Of a stretch of DNA of 34,847 nucleotides, positions 3 through 18,620 are shown in pieces (positions within the stretch are counted from its first letter, which is position 1; every line of letters starts with the position of its first letter). Location of the stretch: NCBI GenBank assembly GCA_946548715.1, contig CAMNPZ010000009.1, positions 1 through 34,847 on the forward strand. Direction: 5' to 3'. This DNA comes from an uncultured Candidatus Saccharibacteria bacterium. GTDB lineage: Bacteria > Patescibacteriota > Saccharimonadia > Saccharimonadales > Saccharimonadaceae. A model generated the notes under the pieces. It saw only the letters and a list, made by a program, of their open reading frames with translations. It was not told where the DNA came from and did not search any database. The position numbers were made by a program, and so were the translations under genes.

Positions 3-3000
3 TCTACTAACCTTTATCTTAATGGTGACTCTACTAAAACCGCAGCCTACACTGCCGTAGATGGTACATCAGCATTAGATAGTACTAATAATACTAACAA
101 ATGGGGTTACACTCTCACTAACAATGCTACGTCTTCTACTGTCTTCTCTCCACTCTCTACTACTGCATCCAGTATCAGAACTATCTCTCAAACTACCAAT
201 GTAACTTCAGAAACCATTCCTATCTACTATGGTATCAAGACTGACAATACAGTAGATCCAGGTACCTATAGCATGGGTAATAATGGCACCATTACTTATT
301 ACCTCACCATGAACCCACTATGTAACATAGTAGACATCGCCTATGATGGTAACAATGCTGACGAGGGAACTATGGGTGCAGCAGGTACTGGCGTTATTCA
401 TACTGGCGTAAAGGATGGTAATAAAGTAAACTTAATCGCTTCTAACTTTAGTAGAGACGGTTACGGCTTTGCTGGTTGGAGTCTAGACAAAGATGCCGGA
501 ACAAAGCTCTTAGATAATGACAATACCAACAACCCAATCGTCTATGGTCCACAAGAATCCGTTACCCTACCAGAAGGCTTCATAGACAATGACACAGATA
601 ATGATGGTATCGTCAAGCTCTATGCTGTCTGGTTACAAAGCCAAGGTAATCTCCAAGGCTGGGCCGGTTGTGCCAACCTAGACACTACCACCTACGACTC
701 TACCACCGGAGCCCTAGACCTCACTAAAAACTCCGTCACCGCCTTAACCGATATGCGCGACCACGACACCTATGCCGTAGCCAGGCTCGCCGATGGCAAT
801 TGTTGGATGATTGAGAATTTACGCCTAGAAGCCGAAGACACCAGAACTCCAGAGAAACAAGCCCTCGCTCAAGGTTACGGTACATCTACTACTTACGGTA
901 ACTTCTCAGGTCTAGCTGATGCAGAATCCGCCAACTTCTCTTATTCTGCTATCGCAAATAGTCTATACTATAGCGGCACTCAGGAAGGTACTGCCAGCAT
1001 AGATATCGGTACATACGACTACTACCCAGCCTATCGTATACCACGTTATAATAACCTCAATACTCCAGCAAATGCTAATGATAGACCACAGAACCCCACT
1101 AGCAACACATTCACTAGCGACAACACAACTGCAGGTATGTATAGCTATGGCAACTACTACACTTGGCACGCAGCTATAGCAGATACTACTTATTATTCCA
1201 GTGGTGACCATAATACCACTTCCATTTGCCCAACTGGCTGGCAGTTGCCACTAGGCAATACCAGTACTGGTGATATAGAACAAGGCGCAGCCGATGCAGC
1301 AAACAAAGTCGGAGGGTTCTCTTACTTAGACAGAATAATGGGTGGTACAGGAGTGGGCCAACGCTCAGCATCGGCTTCTCTACGTTGGCGTACATTCCCA
1401 AATAACTTCCTCTACTCCGGCAGTTTCGTTTCATCGTCAACGGGCGGTAGAGGGGAGCGCGGCTACTATTGGTCGTCTACTGTGAACAGTGACCGCTATT
1501 CGTACCGCCTGCAGCTGGATAGTTCCAGCGTGTCCCCAGGTAGCGGTGACTACAATAAGTACGACGGCTACAGTATTAGGTGTACAGTTCCAAGCAATCT
1601 CTATGCCATCCATTTTGATGCGAACACTACCGATACGGTCACTGGTACCATGGCTAATCAAGCCATTGCAGTAGATGAGGCTACACAATTGAATAGTAAT
1701 TCATTCCAGCGTCCCGCCACTTCTAGCGCCGCCTACCGCTTCGTCAAATGGAACACTGAACCGGATGGTTCTGGCACTGACTATGCGGATGGTGCCTCGG
1801 TTACTAATCTAACCACTATCGGTCAAACCATCACTCTTTACGCTCAATGGGAACAAGTTACACCAATGACGGTAGACTTTAACGCCAATGGCCTATCCTT
1901 TAGCGATTCCTCTACGACCAACACAGTCTATTATGCTAACTATGATTCTATAAAAGCACTCACTAAATACTCCCATACTCCCAACATAGACGATAGTGGT
2001 AATCAAAACGGCAATTATCCCAATAACGCCAATCTAAACGAAGTCATCACTATTCCAGGTGCTTCCAAACTCCACATCGCACTTACCTACGAAGGCGAAT
2101 CTACCGGCTATGACTGGGTCAGCTTCTGGGAAGGGAACTATCCCAGCTATACCGCAGGCAGTAATTACAGTACTGGTGTTAAATGGACCGGTACTGGCAG
2201 TACCAATGGTAAGTACGGTGGTACTACTAAAACTACTCTAGAAGGCGACATCAATGGTGATACTGTAACCTTCGCCTTCAAATCCGATGGCGGTGGTGTT
2301 GGTGGTGGCTATGGCTACTATGCTGTCATTACAGGTCTAGACTCTAATGGTGATACCATGATTGGTCCAGTCTGCTCCCGCTCACTCATCACCGGCGACT
2401 ATAAAACACCCGTTATTGATTCTCTTCGTACCTTCTACGGCTGGAGCGAAAACCAATCTGCCACTACTGCAGATTACGCCACTGCCGACAAAGTTCTCAA
2501 CAATCTCCCAGGGAACAATGGTGAAACCAAAACTCTCTACGCTATCTGGAAAAACAACCTAACTATTAATTACGATGCCAATGGTGGTACGGGTACTACA
2601 GCCAGCCAGACCGTAGCTGCAGGAGAAACAATTACATTGAAGAGCAATAGCTTTACTGCGCCCGCAAATACAGCATTTAGAGGCTGGAACACAGAGCCAG
2701 ATGGCACTGGTACTTCCTACTCTGCTTATACTACCTTTACCGCTCCTAACAGTGTTGCCTATAATGATTCGCTTACTCTTTACGCTCAATGGATCCCCCA
2801 ATACACTATTACCTACGTGAATAATTGTCAGACTTATGCCAGTGCTAACACCAACTGTACAACAACTGCCTCAAACCGTACCAGCAAACAAAAGATTAAT
2901 CTAACCAACGACCCCAGCACTGGCACTGAAACCGGCACCCTCGCTGCCTACAACGAATGGACTCTCACTGGCTGGAAGATTACTGGTTGGAACACTAGCG

Positions 3001-4346
3001 CCGACGGCACCGGTACGGAATACGGAGTCAGTAGCACGTACACCGTCCCAGCAGGCTCCAGTGTAGGCAGTGGCATCACTCTCTATGCTCACTGGGTCCC
3101 AATCTATACTGTCCAATATGATGGTAATGGTTCTGACAATGACGATACTGGTATGGGTTCTACTAACACATCTACCGGCATTAAGACCGTAGCTCATACT
3201 AACGTAGCTGAAGGCGATACTTTTGATCTCTTCGCCTCTAACTTCAAGCGCGCAGGCTACGGTTTTGTAGGCTGGAGTACAGACTCTAATGCTTGGGACA
3301 AACTCACGGATAACGATACAACCAATGATGCCAAAATCTGGGGGCCAAATGAAGTTATTACTGCACCGCCCTATAACGGTACGCCCATTACTACCCTTTA
3401 TGCCATCTGGGCTCCAGCTGAAACAGATGATGGTAGCCCCGTATATCTACAAAACTGGACCGGCTGTTCCGCTATGACTGCTACCACTTATGATACTGCT
3501 ACTGGTAAGCTCACCGTAGCTAAGAATAGTATTACCGCATTAACTGACCAACGTGATGGCAATGTCTATACTATCGCGAAACTCGCTGATGAGAACTGCT
3601 GGATGGTGGAGAACTTACGTTTAGATGATTCTTCGGAACTTTCTACCACTAATACCAATATCAAGAGTACTAATTCTACTTTGCCTATTACCAATGTTTC
3701 CAATGACGATAGTTCGCTCGCTATTAAATCCAACTATCTCTCCGCTACTTCTAGTAGCTGGTGTGAAAGCTCATATCCTACATGTTACAACCAATCCATG
3801 TTAAACACTAATAATACAGTGACGAACATCACTCCATCTCAAACCCAAACGATCACTTTCACTTCGACCAATGATCATGCTAGCTTCAATAATGCCATTT
3901 ATAGTTATGGTAATTACTACAACTGGTATTCGGCTACTGCAGGATACGGCACCGATAGCACACCTACCACCAGTATTCCGACAGATGGCGATCTTTGTCC
4001 AGCTGGTTGGAAACTACCATACGGCAATACTGGAACTTCCGGAACTAATATCGGAAATACTAAAGGTGGTTTTTATTACCTAGCGAATCGGATGAGTGCT
4101 ACAAGCAGTAACCAAATAAACTCTAATAAGTTTCGTAGGTTCCCCAATAACTTTGTTTACTCTGGGAATTGGGTTGGCAATGATAACAATAATAGGGGCT
4201 ACCGCGGGATGTACTGGTCCGCCTCTTCTAAGGATGGTGGTAATAACGTTTACATTCTGCTCTTAGGTGTATCCGATTTAACTCCAGGTAGCGATTATGA
4301 TTCTAAGGATACTGGCTATTCGGTCCGTTGCTTGATAGGGAGCTAG
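3..4346 (+). CDS. Large secreted surface protein, 5'-truncated by the window edge (Listeria-Bacteroides repeats, two FISUMP domains)
   Basis: The frame is open from base 3, well upstream of the first ATG at 273, so the gene begins outside the window; about 1447 codons are visible. Order of modules (nt): InlB-B/Listeria-Bacteroides-type repeat with FAGWS...LYAVW (about 330-620); FISUMP (Fib_succ_major) domain 1 with NCWMIENLRL, CPTGWQLP, YYWSS and YSIRC (645-1600); another repeat ending LYAQWE (1606-1852); a CUB-like segment with YDWVSFWEG (about 2040-2340); three more GWNT/LYAQW-type repeats (2564-3410); FISUMP domain 2 with NCWMVENLRL, CPAGWKLP, MYWSAS and YSVRC (3430-4343). FISUMP domains occur in adhesin-like extracellular proteins; the ligand is unknown. 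No LPxTG or C-terminal membrane anchor is present, so retention must use the unseen N-terminus. The repeats are Thr/Ser/Asn-rich. The FISUMP tails carry TCG/AGC/GTG/CTG codons unlike the rest of the gene. Confidence 0.85.
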   Translation, partial: STNLYLNGDSTKTAAYTAVDGTSALDSTNNTNKWGYTLTNNATSSTVFSPLSTTASSIRTISQTTNVTSETIPIYYGIKTDNTVDPGTYSMGNNGTITYYLTMNPLCNIVDIAYDGNNADEGTMGAAGTGVIHTGVKDGNKVNLIASNFSRDGYGFAGWSLDKDAGTKLLDNDNTNNPIVYGPQESVTLPEGFIDNDTDNDGIVKLYAVWLQSQGNLQGWAGCANLDTTTYDSTTGALDLTKNSVTALTDMRDHDTYAVARLADGNCWMIENLRLEAEDTRTPEKQALAQGYGTSTTYGNFSGLADAESANFSYSAIANSLYYSGTQEGTASIDIGTYDYYPAYRIPRYNNLNTPANANDRPQNPTSNTFTSDNTTAGMYSYGNYYTWHAAIADTTYYSSGDHNTTSICPTGWQLPLGNTSTGDIEQGAADAANKVGGFSYLDRIMGGTGVGQRSASASLRWRTFPNNFLYSGSFVSSSTGGRGERGYYWSSTVNSDRYSYRLQLDSSSVSPGSGDYNKYDGYSIRCTVPSNLYAIHFDANTTDTVTGTMANQAIAVDEATQLNSNSFQRPATSSAAYRFVKWNTEPDGSGTDYADGASVTNLTTIGQTITLYAQWEQVTPMTVDFNANGLSFSDSSTTNTVYYANYDSIKALTKYSHTPNIDDSGNQNGNYPNNANLNEVITIPGASKLHIALTYEGESTGYDWVSFWEGNYPSYTAGSNYSTGVKWTGTGSTNGKYGGTTKTTLEGDINGDTVTFAFKSDGGGVGGGYGYYAVITGLDSNGDTMIGPVCSRSLITGDYKTPVIDSLRTFYGWSENQSATTADYATADKVLNNLPGNNGETKTLYAIWKNNLTINYDANGGTGTTASQTVAAGETITLKSNSFTAPANTAFRGWNTEPDGTGTSYSAYTTFTAPNSVAYNDSLTLYAQWIPQYTITYVNNCQTYASANTNCTTTASNRTSKQKINLTNDPSTGTETGTLAAYNEWTLTGWKITGWNTSADGTGTEYGVSSTYTVPAGSSVGSGITLYAHWVPIYTVQYDGNGSDNDDTGMGSTNTSTGIKTVAHTNVAEGDTFDLFASNFKRAGYGFVGWSTDSNAWDKLTDNDTTNDAKIWGPNEVITAPPYNGTPITTLYAIWAPAETDDGSPVYLQNWTGCSAMTATTYDTATGKLTVAKNSITALTDQRDGNVYTIAKLADENCWMVENLRLDDSSELSTTNTNIKSTNSTLPITNVSNDDSSLAIKSNYLSATSSSWCESSYPTCYNQSMLNTNNTVTNITPSQTQTITFTSTNDHASFNNAIYSYGNYYNWYSATAGYGTDSTPTTSIPTDGDLCPAGWKLPYGNTGTSGTNIGNTKGGFYYLANRMSATSSNQINSNKFRRFPNNFVYSGNWVGNDNNNRGYRGMYWSASSKDGGNNVYILLLGVSDLTPGSDYDSKDTGYSVRCLIGS

Positions 4347-8910: not shown

Positions 8911-9621
8911 ATGAAAAAAGCAAGACCAATCATCTGGGGAGTCGCCATCATGGCACTCGGTATTATTTTCGCCTGTCGCGCCATCGGCTGGTTCGACTTC
9001 GACATTTTCTTCGACGGCTGGTGGACATTATTCATCATCATCCCATCTGTCGTTAGCATCTTCACCGAGAAGGACAAACTCGCCAGCGTCGGCTTCCTGT
9101 CCGCCGGCATCATTCTCCTTCTTGCCGCTCAAAGAGTCATCACCTACGACATGGCCTGGAAAATCATTCTCCCCGTCTTCCTCGTACTAATCGGCCTCGG
9201 CATCATCCTAAGAACCATCTTCCACAGTGACAACGACAAAGAAGTCGAACAAAAAGTCAAAGAAACCGGCGACGGCAAAAGTCTCGACTCCCAAATGGCC
9301 ATCTTCTCCGGTAGCGAACGCACGTACAAAGACGAAACCTTCACCGGCTCCAACCTCGTCGCCGTCTTTGGCGGGGTCGACCTCGACCTCTCCCATGCCA
9401 GATTCACCAAAGACACCGTTATCAAGGCCTTCGCACTCTTTGGTGGCATTGACATCCGAGTCCCCGAAGACGTCATCGTCAAATCCCGCTCCGGCTTTAT
9501 TTTTGGCGGCATCTCCGACGACCGCAAGTCCGACCGCGAAAAAGGCAAACACACCATCTACCTCGACGCCGCTGGCGGCTTCGGCGGCATCTCTATCACC
9601 GACAAATCCACCAAGCACTAA
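8911..9621 (+). CDS. LiaF-like membrane protein (four helices plus LiaF C-terminal beta domain)
   Basis: The 236-aa product has four hydrophobic helices in its N-terminal half (about residues 7-24, 34-51, 60-76, 84-102) as in DUF5668/LiaF-type proteins. A C-terminal soluble domain has repeated glycine turns (VFGGVDLDLSHA, LFGGIDIRVPED, FIFGGISDD, GGFGGISI) typical of the LiaF C-terminal (DUF2154-like) beta-helix. LiaF modulates LiaRS cell-envelope stress sensing in Firmicutes, but no LiaRS-like pair is visible here, so an envelope-stress role is inference. AAAGGA precedes the ATG and an intrinsic terminator follows at 9649-9674, so the gene is probably monocistronic. Confidence 0.75.
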   Translation: MKKARPIIWGVAIMALGIIFACRAIGWFDFDIFFDGWWTLFIIIPSVVSIFTEKDKLASVGFLSAGIILLLAAQRVITYDMAWKIILPVFLVLIGLGIILRTIFHSDNDKEVEQKVKETGDGKSLDSQMAIFSGSERTYKDETFTGSNLVAVFGGVDLDLSHARFTKDTVIKAFALFGGIDIRVPEDVIVKSRSGFIFGGISDDRKSDREKGKHTIYLDAAGGFGGISITDKSTKH

Positions 9622-9648
9622 AGCTTGTGGTTAGCATCCAGTTTCCTC

Positions 9649-9674
9649 GGGAGCACTACATTGCTCCCATTTTT
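9649..9674 (+). terminator. Intrinsic terminator of the LiaF-like gene
   Basis: GGGAGCA (9649-9655) pairs with TGCTCCC (9662-9668), followed by ATTTTT. Confidence 0.85.
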
Positions 9675-9700
9675 ACTCCGCTATTTTTTTGCAATCCCTC

Positions 9701-9729
9701 TTGATATATATATATATATATATTACAAT
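9701..9729 (+). promoter_or_regulatory. Promoter with a TA-dinucleotide spacer, candidate phase-variable switch
   Basis: TTGATA (9701-9706) and TACAAT (9724-9729) are separated by exactly 17 bases, all of them alternating TA. Slippage would change spacing in 2-bp steps and so promoter strength, as in Haemophilus hif fimbrial promoters. A competing extended -10 (TGG-TAAAAT, 9747-9752) lies downstream. It serves the FISUMP gene at 9782. Confidence 0.65.
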
Positions 9730-9781
9730 AAACATAATGATTATGGTAAAATAGCATATAAGAAAGGTCATCAATCATATT

Positions 9782-11347
9782 ATGAAAACAATCCAATCAA
9801 ATATCCTAAACTCTATCAACCTTATTCCATTAGGACTAGTTTCTCTTAGCTTACTTTCTGGTACTATCCTAGTCTCTAGTACTGTCTCCGCCGATGATAC
9901 TTCCGTCGTAGACCAAATCAACATCACCGTTCCAGTCTCCTGTACTATGTCTGGCACTGGTATGCAATCCCATAATGCCAATATTAATAATGGACTATAT
10001 GACCATGATATAGGTTCTACAGTACTTCATGCATTCTGTAATGATAATGAAGGATTCGCTATCTATGCAGCAGGATATACCGGAAATGAAGTAGGAGGAG
10101 CAAATAGTAATAAACTAGTAGGAACAACTGCAAGTAACAATGCAACTATAGAATCCGGTATAGCAACAACTGCTAGTAACCCAGACGTATCTAACTGGGC
10201 TATGAAACTCACTATGACTCAGGATAGTGGAGATACTACAGCTGATAATGCCTTTACCATTGATTCTGCTCCTAACGAGGCACTGCCTAGCCAAGCAGAA
10301 TCCGGTGCTACTCAGGCTCCTTTTTCACAATATCACGTAGTCCCAAATGAATACGTTAAAGTAGCTCATAAGAACTCTGGTACCGACATGACTGAAACTA
10401 CTGGTGGAGTTAAGCTTACTACTACTTATGCCGCTTACATTTCTAAAACTCAAGCTGCCGATACATATTCTGGACAAGTAATTTACGTTCTAGTCCATCC
10501 TGCTGATGCCGCTGCGCCAACCATTCCGAAATCTCTAGATACCGCTACTACTATGCAGGAAGTAACTTACTGTTCCGAAGACCTTCCAGAAGGACAAGTC
10601 TACACATTGACTGATGAACGTGACGGTAACACCTACCATGTAGCTAGACTCAAAGATGGCAACTGCTGGATGCTGGACAATCTAGCCCTTGATCCAACTG
10701 ACCCAACTACTGCGTCCAATATGAATGTATCAAACACTAACGCTACTCAAGAAGCCATCGATAATCTCCTGAATGGCGGCAGTACTATAGCTGGATGGAG
10801 CAGCGTAGCGATAGCTAATGTAGTAGATGATTTCGCTACTAGTTATAATAGTCTTATCCGACCACGAATTAATAATACTAGTAAAGATACTTTCGTCACA
10901 TCTTATGGTCCAACTTCAATTAATGGTCGGGCTAAAGTAGGTATCTATTACAATTTTTGTGCTGCTAGTACTGGCACCTACTGTTATACGAAAGATAGCG
11001 GTGTAGATATACCAGATACAATTATTGATGCTCCGCAAGACATCTGTCCAGCTAACTGGAGAATGCCTACTGGTGGTGACGGAGAATACTATACTCTCTC
11101 TCAAAAGTATGGGAGTAATGCAACAAATACTAATAGCTTACAATACAATTTATCTGTTCCTTTGTCGGGCAGCTATCTCGCTAGCTCGGCGAGCAATCAG
11201 GGTAGCTACGGCTACTGGTGGTCGTCTACTTACTACAATAGTAACGGGATATACTACATGAGCTTGAATTCGACGAATGTATACTCGAACGATAACATCA
11301 ATATCCGTGGTGTTGGAATGTCTATAAGATGCTTGATGGCTGAGTAG
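9782..11347 (+). CDS. Secreted FISUMP-domain surface protein
   Basis: The 521-aa product begins with a signal peptide: a basic N-terminus, a hydrophobic core and a VSA cleavage site near residues 35-37. A Ser/Thr/Asn-rich domain of about 230 residues follows, then a FISUMP (Fib_succ_major) domain from about residue 265. The landmarks are YTLTDERDGNTYHVARL, NCWMLDNLAL, ICPANWRMPTGGDGEY, YGYWWSSTYY and SIRCLMAE at the end. Such domains form lectin-like extracellular modules; the ligand is unknown. No C-terminal anchor is present. The nucleotides around GYWWSSTY are nearly identical to those in domain 1 of the first surface protein (19 of 21), while residues on either side diverge sharply. Regulation is probably through the TA-spacer promoter at 9701-9729. 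AAAGG lies rather far (14 nt) from the ATG. Confidence 0.85.
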   Translation: MKTIQSNILNSINLIPLGLVSLSLLSGTILVSSTVSADDTSVVDQINITVPVSCTMSGTGMQSHNANINNGLYDHDIGSTVLHAFCNDNEGFAIYAAGYTGNEVGGANSNKLVGTTASNNATIESGIATTASNPDVSNWAMKLTMTQDSGDTTADNAFTIDSAPNEALPSQAESGATQAPFSQYHVVPNEYVKVAHKNSGTDMTETTGGVKLTTTYAAYISKTQAADTYSGQVIYVLVHPADAAAPTIPKSLDTATTMQEVTYCSEDLPEGQVYTLTDERDGNTYHVARLKDGNCWMLDNLALDPTDPTTASNMNVSNTNATQEAIDNLLNGGSTIAGWSSVAIANVVDDFATSYNSLIRPRINNTSKDTFVTSYGPTSINGRAKVGIYYNFCAASTGTYCYTKDSGVDIPDTIIDAPQDICPANWRMPTGGDGEYYTLSQKYGSNATNTNSLQYNLSVPLSGSYLASSASNQGSYGYWWSSTYYNSNGIYYMSLNSTNVYSNDNINIRGVGMSIRCLMAE

Positions 11348-16447: not shown

Positions 16448-16780
16448 ATGCAAGATTATCTTCTTGATCGAGAAACTCTGGCCCAGTTTATCGACGAGCT
16501 TATGAAAAAGCGACCAATTCCGGTCGACAATGCTACAGAAATCAATAACTTTAGGGAAGAACAAATGAAAGCCCTAGACGACCATATCTCTGATGCCATC
16601 TTCGGCGGTATGAGCGATGCGCAGCTATCCAGTCTAAACCAACTGCTTGACCAAGAGAAAGATAATCCAGATGTTTTTCGAAACTTCTTCAAGGCGCAAA
16701 ACATCGACATCGACGGGATAGTCGCCGATGCATTTAATTCGTTTAGTACAAATTATTTAACAGGAGGTCACAATGGCTAA
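16448..16780 (+). CDS. DUF5663-like small acidic protein
   Basis: The 110-aa all-helical product includes HISDAIFGGMSDAQLSSLNQ and LLDQEKDNPDVFRNFF, the pattern I associate with DUF5663 proteins of Saccharibacteria and relatives; that assignment is from memory. No signal peptide or membrane helix is present. Its last 8 bases overlap the start of the next gene, and GGAGG for that gene lies inside it, so translation of the two is coupled. It opens a three-gene envelope operon and may be a cytoplasmic partner of the next membrane protein. Confidence 0.6.
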   Translation: MQDYLLDRETLAQFIDELMKKRPIPVDNATEINNFREEQMKALDDHISDAIFGGMSDAQLSSLNQLLDQEKDNPDVFRNFFKAQNIDIDGIVADAFNSFSTNYLTGGHNG

Positions 16781-18620
16781 ATCACCCGATTCATTACCCG
16801 GAAGTAATCCTGAAACCGGACGGCAAAGAGATGATCATCGTAAAATTGGCGGCAAAGTCATAGCGGCCGCCAAAGCCGAAGGAAAAACACCTGAAGCTCC
16901 AGGCAAAACAGCTAGAGAGATTTTCGACCAAATGACTCCAGGTTCAGATGCAGACGAAGCAATTCGGCGAGCTGAGGAGGCCGAGCAAGCGGCACTCCGA
17001 GGGCAAGCAGCTAGAGCGATTTTCGACCAAATGACTCCAGGCCCAGATGCAGACGAAGCGATTCGGCGAGCTGAGGAGGCCGAACAAGCGGCACTCCGAG
17101 GGCAAAAAGCAACACCGAATGCAGAACGAGGTAAAACTCCCGCCGAAACAACCAAAGAAAAAGCCAAAACCAACTCTGCCTTTAAAACAGCAGTCCGTGG
17201 GTTAATAGCTGGCGGAGTAGCCACACTCGCCGCACTTGGTATATTTGGCGCCTATGAGTCTAATAGGAGATTAAACCCAACGCAACCACAGGCAACTGAG
17301 GCAGAAGCTGTTCCTGGCGGCTCATCGGAGGATGACGCTGGTGCCACCGCGGAAGCAGAAAACCAGTCTAGCTTCGAAAGTCTTAATGCTACGCTTAACC
17401 ATTCATTTGAGCAAGATGACAATTTAGGTTGTTATGAAGATGCTAACAAAGTCGACCCAGCCTCAATCGGTAATCCTAGAGCGATAGCCGAAGAACTAGG
17501 CTTAGATTTCGACAATCTTCCTGCCGACCAACGTGGGAAGATTAGTGAATATATCGCTCGTTCGATGAAATACCCAGCAGCTGCGGAAGCTATTACTCAT
17601 GGCTACCCTGGATTCGAGGGGCTAAGCCAACAAGAAGCCGAAGATAGAATTGCTAGCATGTCTCCTGAAGAAAAAGCTAATTTTGACGCATTCCTCGTGA
17701 ACGAATATGCAAATTCTACATATACCTACATGGATGGTAACGGAACAATGGTAAATCATGGTGTCGTAGGCGAACGGGGTGATAGGCATAGCACATCGCG
17801 AGAAGCAGACATGACTGGAAAGAGAATCCTGGTCCGTGAAACAACCCAGCAAGGCGGAGCCAAAGTTACAGATTATATTAAAGATGATTGTAATAACTGG
17901 TTATACACAATCGTCATACGTCCAGATGGACAAACTACCGTTATTACGCCTCCCCCTGCTCCAACTCCAAGCAATCCTAGTAATCCCGATAATCCAAGCA
18001 ATCCCAGCAATCCCGATAATCCCAGCAATCCCGATAATCCCAGCAATCCCGATAATCCCAGCAATCCCGACAAGCCCGATAAACCAGACCAGCCCGCACA
18101 TCCTCCGAAAAATAAAGAAGCCGAAAGGCGGAATGCTGGCGAGCATGTTACTCCAATATCGGTTGATCCAAACGCTGCCAATTCCGAACAGGCTCACGAA
18201 GCGCAGGAAAAAGCCAATCGTGAATCCGTAGACGCTCAAGCCGAAGCTAAACGACAGGCTGCAGCCGAAGCAGAGCGCCAAGCCGCCGCTCAAGCCGAAG
18301 CGGAGCGTCAAGCTGCCGCCGAAGCTGAACAACGTCGTCAGCAAGCCGAAGCAGAGCGCCAAGCCGCCGCTCAAGCCGAAGCAGAGCGCCAAGCCGAAGC
18401 GGAACGTCAAGCCGAAGCTGCACGACAAGCCGCAGAACAAGCTGCCGCCGAAGCCGCACGTCAAGCCGCCGAAGAAGCTCAGCGTCAAGCCGCCGCCGAC
18501 GAAGCTGCAAGGCGGGCACAAGCCGAAGCCGACGCCGCTGCAGCCGCCGCCGCTGAGACTGCCCCGGCCGGCGCAACCGCCGATGACTTTGCCGCTGCAG
18601 CTGATGAAGAAGGTTTTTAA
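16773..18620 (+). CDS. Membrane protein with tandem repeats and a TolA-like Ala/Gln/Glu coiled coil
   Basis: The 615-aa product is modular. Residues 47-112 hold two near-identical 33-residue repeats (AREIFDQMTPGSDADEAIRR). One membrane helix spans about residues 137-158 (AVRGLIAGGVATLAALGIFG). A globular acidic domain of about 220 residues contains GYPGFEGLSQQEAEDRI and ends near NNWLYTIVIRPDGQTTVI. Next is a Pro/Asn/Ser/Asp linker of repeated NPSNPD units. A long Ala-Glu-Gln-Arg heptad-like region (AEAERQAAAQAEAERQ type, about residues 490-600) resembles the TolA stalk. The repeats at 0-50% divergence show recent expansion. With one helix it would expose a long rod; its side of the membrane is not certain. 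Function unknown, probably structural at the cell surface. Confidence 0.75.
   Translation: MAKSPDSLPGSNPETGRQRDDHRKIGGKVIAAAKAEGKTPEAPGKTAREIFDQMTPGSDADEAIRRAEEAEQAALRGQAARAIFDQMTPGPDADEAIRRAEEAEQAALRGQKATPNAERGKTPAETTKEKAKTNSAFKTAVRGLIAGGVATLAALGIFGAYESNRRLNPTQPQATEAEAVPGGSSEDDAGATAEAENQSSFESLNATLNHSFEQDDNLGCYEDANKVDPASIGNPRAIAEELGLDFDNLPADQRGKISEYIARSMKYPAAAEAITHGYPGFEGLSQQEAEDRIASMSPEEKANFDAFLVNEYANSTYTYMDGNGTMVNHGVVGERGDRHSTSREADMTGKRILVRETTQQGGAKVTDYIKDDCNNWLYTIVIRPDGQTTVITPPPAPTPSNPSNPDNPSNPSNPDNPSNPDNPSNPDNPSNPDKPDKPDQPAHPPKNKEAERRNAGEHVTPISVDPNAANSEQAHEAQEKANRESVDAQAEAKRQAAAEAERQAAAQAEAERQAAAEAEQRRQQAEAERQAAAQAEAERQAEAERQAEAARQAAEQAAAEAARQAAEEAQRQAAADEAARRAQAEADAAAAAAAETAPAGATADDFAAAADEEGF
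16911..17108 (+). repeat. Two tandem 99-bp units
   Basis: Units 16911-17009 and 17010-17108 both begin GCTAGAG and end around GGGCAA. They differ at few positions and each encodes 33 residues, indicating recent in-frame duplication. Confidence 0.85.

Follow-up and report, generated by a model that had tools for sequence, protein, structure and literature searches.

The gene for a secreted FISUMP-family protein is preceded, in the DNA analyzed here, by what appears to be a length-variable promoter module, in which a promoter whose entire spacer is a TA repeat (P1) lies just upstream of a second, basal promoter (P2). We put the probability of this reading at roughly 0.7. The window, by which we mean the whole stretch of 34,847 nucleotides that was analyzed, comes from a Candidatus Saccharibacteria genome of 781,578 bp, and the source organism is presumably a tiny parasitic gut bacterium that lives as an epibiont. 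The features on which the argument depends are the following, where n is the number of two-base units in the tract.

9649-9668, forward strand: terminator-like hairpin of the upstream LiaF-like gene, separating that gene from P1
9689-9694, forward strand: TTGCAA, from sequence and scoring a possible alternative -35, in register only at n = 4
9701-9706, forward strand: -35 of P1, TTGATA, kept in all related copies
9704-9723, forward strand: (AT)10 tract, of which 9707-9723 is the entire 17-bp spacer; relatives have n = 5, 8, 10 or 12
9724-9729, forward strand: -10 of P1, TACAAT
9733-9745, forward strand: inverted repeat CATAATGATTATG, lying between P1 and P2 and overlapping the TG of P2
9742-9752, forward strand: P2, a putative extended -10 promoter, TATGGTAAAAT
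9760-9767, forward strand: Shine-Dalgarno-like AAGAAAGG in the conserved leader, 14 nt 5' of the start codon
9782-11347, forward strand: gene for the secreted FISUMP-domain protein of 521 aa, with a signal-peptide-like N-terminus, PF09603 and more than 20 family matches in the genome

The layout of P1 (full site CTTGATATATATATATATATATATTACAATAAACATAATGATTATGGTAAAATAG) agrees to the base with the sequence-only reading, which had placed TTGATA and TACAAT 17 bp apart with every spacer base inside the TA tract. As in phase-variable promoters that depend on spacer length, the tandem repeat sits between the -35 and the -10. The tract is not due to chance: 20-mers of this kind are expected about 1e-5 times or less in a genome of this size, and TATATATATATA occurs at one genome position only, that of P1, which is also the sole TA tract of at least six units in the genome. 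The value of n = 10 is that of one metagenome assembly. The two hexamers match the consensus at 10 of 12 positions, and a consensus scan of 9500-9900 returned this one pair, against 1.3 expected from shuffled sequence. By itself, therefore, the pair proves nothing; we dropped the promoter call from consensus alone, which is no better than shuffles, and used comparative evidence instead.

The same promoter leader is present in five further copies from three other related species, with n = 5, 5, 8, 10 and 12, so that there are six copies in four species (n = 5, 5, 8, 10, 10, 12) when the window is included. TTGATA and TACAAT are kept in all six despite divergence of the sequence 5' of the -35 region, and the leader from TACAAT to the ATG is a constant 61 bp, free of indels, with one to four substitutions relative to the window copy. 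Thus, tract length differs while the flanks stay constant, in a comparison that runs across species and paralogs with one genome per species. UBA3749 alone (L036, L039) has n = 8, 10 and 12, so its spacers measure 13, 17 and 21 bp. One of its copies has the LiaF-like gene (98% identical) as a neighbor, just as in the window, and the tract there is again n = 10, which may reflect selection for that length or a slowly changing tract. The terminator-like hairpin is likewise found 5' of four of the five related copies. Scanning viral contigs for the exact leader gave no match, and neither did a plasmid search.

We considered which spacer lengths are favored in this clade. Among 26 non-repeat TTGACA..TATAAT pairs in the fetched clade DNA, the spacer is 17 bp in 14, 16 bp in five and 18 bp in one, and control hexamers show no spacer peak. 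Of the 40 clade -10s that are paired with TTGACA at 17 bp, 12 have C at position 3 and 39 have A at position 5, so TACAAT is an ordinary -10 and TATATT is not. With clade-derived matrices, the P1 score is 15.7 for n = 10 and drops to 11.7 for n = 9, to 8.7 for n = 11 and to 9.3 for n = 12; these are rough predictions, in which the score for this -35 peaks only at n = 10. Thus, the tract in the window, with its 17-bp spacer, has the one length that falls within the optimal 16-18 bp, and its neighbors fall outside. The idea that TATATT inside the tract might serve as a -10 and keep n = 12 on was rejected, this hexamer being weak by the same matrices and the same position 5 preference.

In other members of the family (L043, L196, L247), poly-G occupies the slot between TTGA(C/T)N and TANNAT and is followed by the same ATAATGATTATGNTANNAT segment. 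The window genome contains one such FISUMP paralog, in which G19 (C5:27285-27303) between TTGACA and TATTAT gives a 26-bp spacer and a promoter predicted to be off, and a close relative of this paralog in UBA3749 (L247) has G10 and a 17-bp spacer. Judged from the sequences, the conserved feature is a spacer that can vary in length, not one given repeat.

The poly-G arrangement is not confined to this group. By our own tally, G8-TANNAT occurs 89 times, in 52 of 174 genus genomes, and its reversed control 7 times, and genus poly-G tracts just 5' of a -10 are about 40-fold above expectation. The -10 is part of this search pattern and the -35 provides the independent test: a TTG-type -35 accompanies 64 of the 80 sites examined, at 14-22 bp in 57 of those 64, and with the strict form TTGA[CT]N the distance is 14-22 bp in 70 of 73 such promoters, where we estimate chance at about 2%. 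Within the order, 28 of 393 genomes contain the pattern TTGAC..G8..TANNAT, with 54 matches altogether, and within the phylum 16 of 380 genomes contain it, with 18 matches; the reversed controls gave 0 in both. Poly-G spacers of 16-17 bp looked underrepresented (13 of 73), which was considered as a sign of mostly-off assemblies and set aside; the bins from 15 to 19 are not significantly different by our estimate, and the members are related.

Poly-G promoters with a -35 usually precede surface-protein genes. Those in the genus lie 5' of genes for FISUMP, leucine-rich-repeat, C1 peptidase, pectate-lyase-like adhesive domain and TM2 proteins, and also of some for cytoplasmic proteins, e.g. a GNAT enzyme. 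A P-x-T-G motif occurs in the last 75 residues of 11 intact poly-G-promoter proteins, followed in 10 of the 11 by a hydrophobic tail resembling a sorting signal. The N-terminus is hydrophobic in 35 of 60, compared with 36% of background ORFs, a background that is itself enriched in secreted family members. In other families or genera, we also observed poly-G promoters before proteins that start M(T/P)RLP.PG and hold ILNDYL (L301, L305, L323, L324, L328), and one protein of the ILNDYL type has collagen-like GxxGxx repeats.

The FISUMP product itself had been called secreted by the sequence-only reading, and we find in it both a signal-peptide-like N-terminus and a PF09603 domain, in keeping with the secreted or surface products of known phase-variable promoters. 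The domain scores 32.0 bits alone, slightly below the cut-off of 33.9, and passes together with its neighbors in the genome search. These features suggest a surface location, and it is secretion and the expansion of the gene family that point to a possible antigenic or adhesive role. The family has 26 matches in this genome; it is matched in 35 of 35 other genus members in a first sample, but in 0 of the 24 genomes that represent other families of the order. Gut metagenomes of sheep and goats are the origin of many of the named relatives. An AlphaFold2 model of the protein (pLDDT 75, pTM 0.64) gave no match at E<=0.001 in a fold search of the PDB; the weak matches, from which we claim no function, include fimbrial subunits and a TasA fibre. 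A profile search of the protein against PDB sequences also gave no match.

Several FISUMP paralogs are cut at contig ends (C5, C7, C12, C16, C21 and C23 of G000); near-identical family members seem to break assembly, and recombination among copies is possible. Elsewhere in the window, a gene for a Zeta-toxin-like kinase (PF06414; 11568-12230) lies immediately 3' of the FISUMP gene, a second protein of 1357 aa (273-4346) has weak FISUMP-domain matches, and a 615-aa ORF (16773-18620) contains several 18-36-bp repeat arrays along with a duplication of 99 bp and has no Pfam match.

P2 is the downstream box that had been named beforehand as the alternative start. It fits the clade consensus TATGNTANAAT, an extended -10 without a -35, which is the dominant promoter form in the regions upstream of 801 ORFs; there, TATG-N stands before the TANAAT sites that lack a -35 (T in 69%, G in 63%). 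Such sites lie 5-9 nt before an ATG in 176 of 476 cases, which implies many leaderless messages and suggests that leaderless mRNAs are widespread in the clade. P2 is conserved among the TA copies (as TATGGTAATAT in L042) and is kept in L034:5001, which has no TA promoter. Because it is both conserved and a match to the clade consensus, P2 probably drives transcription as well, and the length of the repeat would then determine how much P1 contributes. The inverted repeat that overlaps P2 is conserved in the TA-type relatives, occurs with small changes in those of the poly-G type, and is a possible operator. By pattern, a P2-like second promoter is found in 5 of 80 poly-G sites, so that, outside this group, most poly-G genes must depend on the repeat-spacer promoter by itself. 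Two FISUMP genes (L037, L038) have only a repeat-spacer promoter, its -10 ending 23 nt before the ATG.

The MutS_I domain was found in 0 of 60 genus genomes and in 11 of 14 control genomes, and MutS mismatch repair is apparently absent from the genus. In at least 10 genus genes, (TA)n forms codons inside the signal peptide or immediately ahead of it, where it reads YIYIYI; several of these belong to the FISUMP family and others are other secreted genes. Since one unit gained or lost in such a tract breaks the frame, these tracts may form a second, translational layer of phase variation. The assembled frame is off in three of them (L019, L212, L217) and on in seven (L220, L226, L227, L228, L239, L292, L298).

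We suggest that replication slippage within one clone would add or remove 2-bp units of the TA tract upstream of the FISUMP gene, and that it would go unopposed because MutS is absent. With n = 10 and a 17-bp spacer, P1 is predicted to be active, so that the assembled state would be the active one; with n = 9 or n = 11, and hence a spacer of 15 or 19 bp, its predicted activity is weak. The fixed P2 would probably supply basal expression. In other words, the repeat would move expression between high and basal levels, and since P2 lies downstream of P1, such modulation is likelier than a strict on/off switch. Length switching here probably takes surface proteins up and down at random, and the cell may benefit from the resulting surface variation. 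The idea that a change of one unit switches expression thus gains support from the fall in predicted score at n = 9 and n = 11, and is qualified by P2, with which such a change may tune expression instead. The wider proposal of a phase-variable promoter is strengthened by the length variation, the poly-G tracts in the same slot, the 17-bp optimum, the absence of MutS and the large secreted family; the conserved P2 counts against it.

P2 also opens the way to a different account, in which the gene is really transcribed from P2, and the TA tract and the hexamers that flank it are a degenerate or auxiliary sequence with little effect on expression. P2 is of the main clade type and persists where the TA promoter has been lost, so P1 may be minor; the leader from P2 would also be compact, at about 23 nt. 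Against this stand the retention of both P1 hexamers in all six TA copies, although the sequence upstream has diverged, and the repeat-spacer genes that have no such second promoter, among them L037, L038 and most of the other poly-G genes; we consider it unlikely that P2 accounts for the site by itself. The tract might instead act as a rheostat on P2, altering its activity through spacing or bending, by DNA shape or a bound regulator, rather than as the spacer of P1. This would fit a tract some 20-40 bp 5' of P2 with the inverted repeat in between, and a comparable rheostat is reported for a repeat at an H. pylori adhesin (PMC4081817). However, poly-G and TA differ greatly in DNA shape and yet occupy exactly the same -35/-10 slot, and we give the rheostat little credence.

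The least probable account, to our minds a very improbable one, is that the tract is a neutral microsatellite, grown by functionless slippage at an AT-rich intergenic site in a lineage without mismatch repair. With MutS absent, tracts may grow anywhere, and about half of the sampled long TA tracts of the genus were assigned to neither a promoter nor a coding start. In this genome, however, the sole TA tract of at least six units and the sole G tract of at least nine, the G19 above, both lie in -35/-10 spacers of one gene family; the sole other G tract of eight is inside an unrelated gene. Across the genus, moreover, about 31 of some 144 exact G9 tracts lie directly 5' of TANNAT by our own tally, against about 0.5% expected from base composition.

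Simple-repeat phase variation is well studied in animal pathogens. In the hif (TA) and porA (poly-G) promoters, repeat length sets the -35/-10 spacing (PMC3899988). A module of variable P1 and basal P2 resembles hifA/hifB of H. influenzae in that a TA repeat forms the -35/-10 spacer before a surface-structure gene (PMC3899988). In contrast to the divergent, bidirectional hif arrangement, the window site serves a single gene, with a terminator upstream and a second, fixed promoter downstream; no divergent gene shares the P1 repeat, and its upstream neighbor, the LiaF-like gene, runs on the same strand and is closed by the terminator. The layout is therefore not hif-like, and the likeness to hif drawn earlier from the sequence holds for the anatomy of the TA spacer and fails for the arrangement of genes. 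The G19 paralog and about 70 genes sampled here resemble porA of N. meningitidis, where a poly-G spacer tunes a surface protein, although porA encodes a Gram-negative porin and the genes here are unrelated ones whose products a Patescibacteria epibiont secretes or anchors in its wall.

The nearest published case is coding-repeat hypervariation in a Gracilibacterium (BD1-5), where slippage has been invoked for hypervariable repeats in a CPR surface protein (PMC6851277). Those repeats are coding arrays that give tripeptide motifs, and are neither promoter spacers nor frame switches (PMC6851277). In the literature searched, mostly titles and abstracts, we found no report of phase variation in Saccharibacteria or Patescibacteria. 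Thus, the type of mechanism is known from hif and porA, and its use in an epibiont phylum appears to be new.

We incline, if only slightly, to a broader view in which Patescibacteria, chiefly host-associated Saccharibacteria, have a broad, MutS-less system of contingency loci, in which promoter spacers of TA or poly-G, together with TA tracts that set the reading frame in signal-peptide codons, switch surface and wall-anchored proteins; this would diversify the epibiont surface against the bacterial host, phages or animal immunity. If true, this would be directly checkable in long reads from existing metagenomes, and assembled tract lengths should not be taken as fixed. It would also suggest why these genomes hold tens of related secreted proteins. 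If general in ultra-small epibiotic bacteria, such switching would give them a concrete route to altering their surface proteins while attached to other bacteria.
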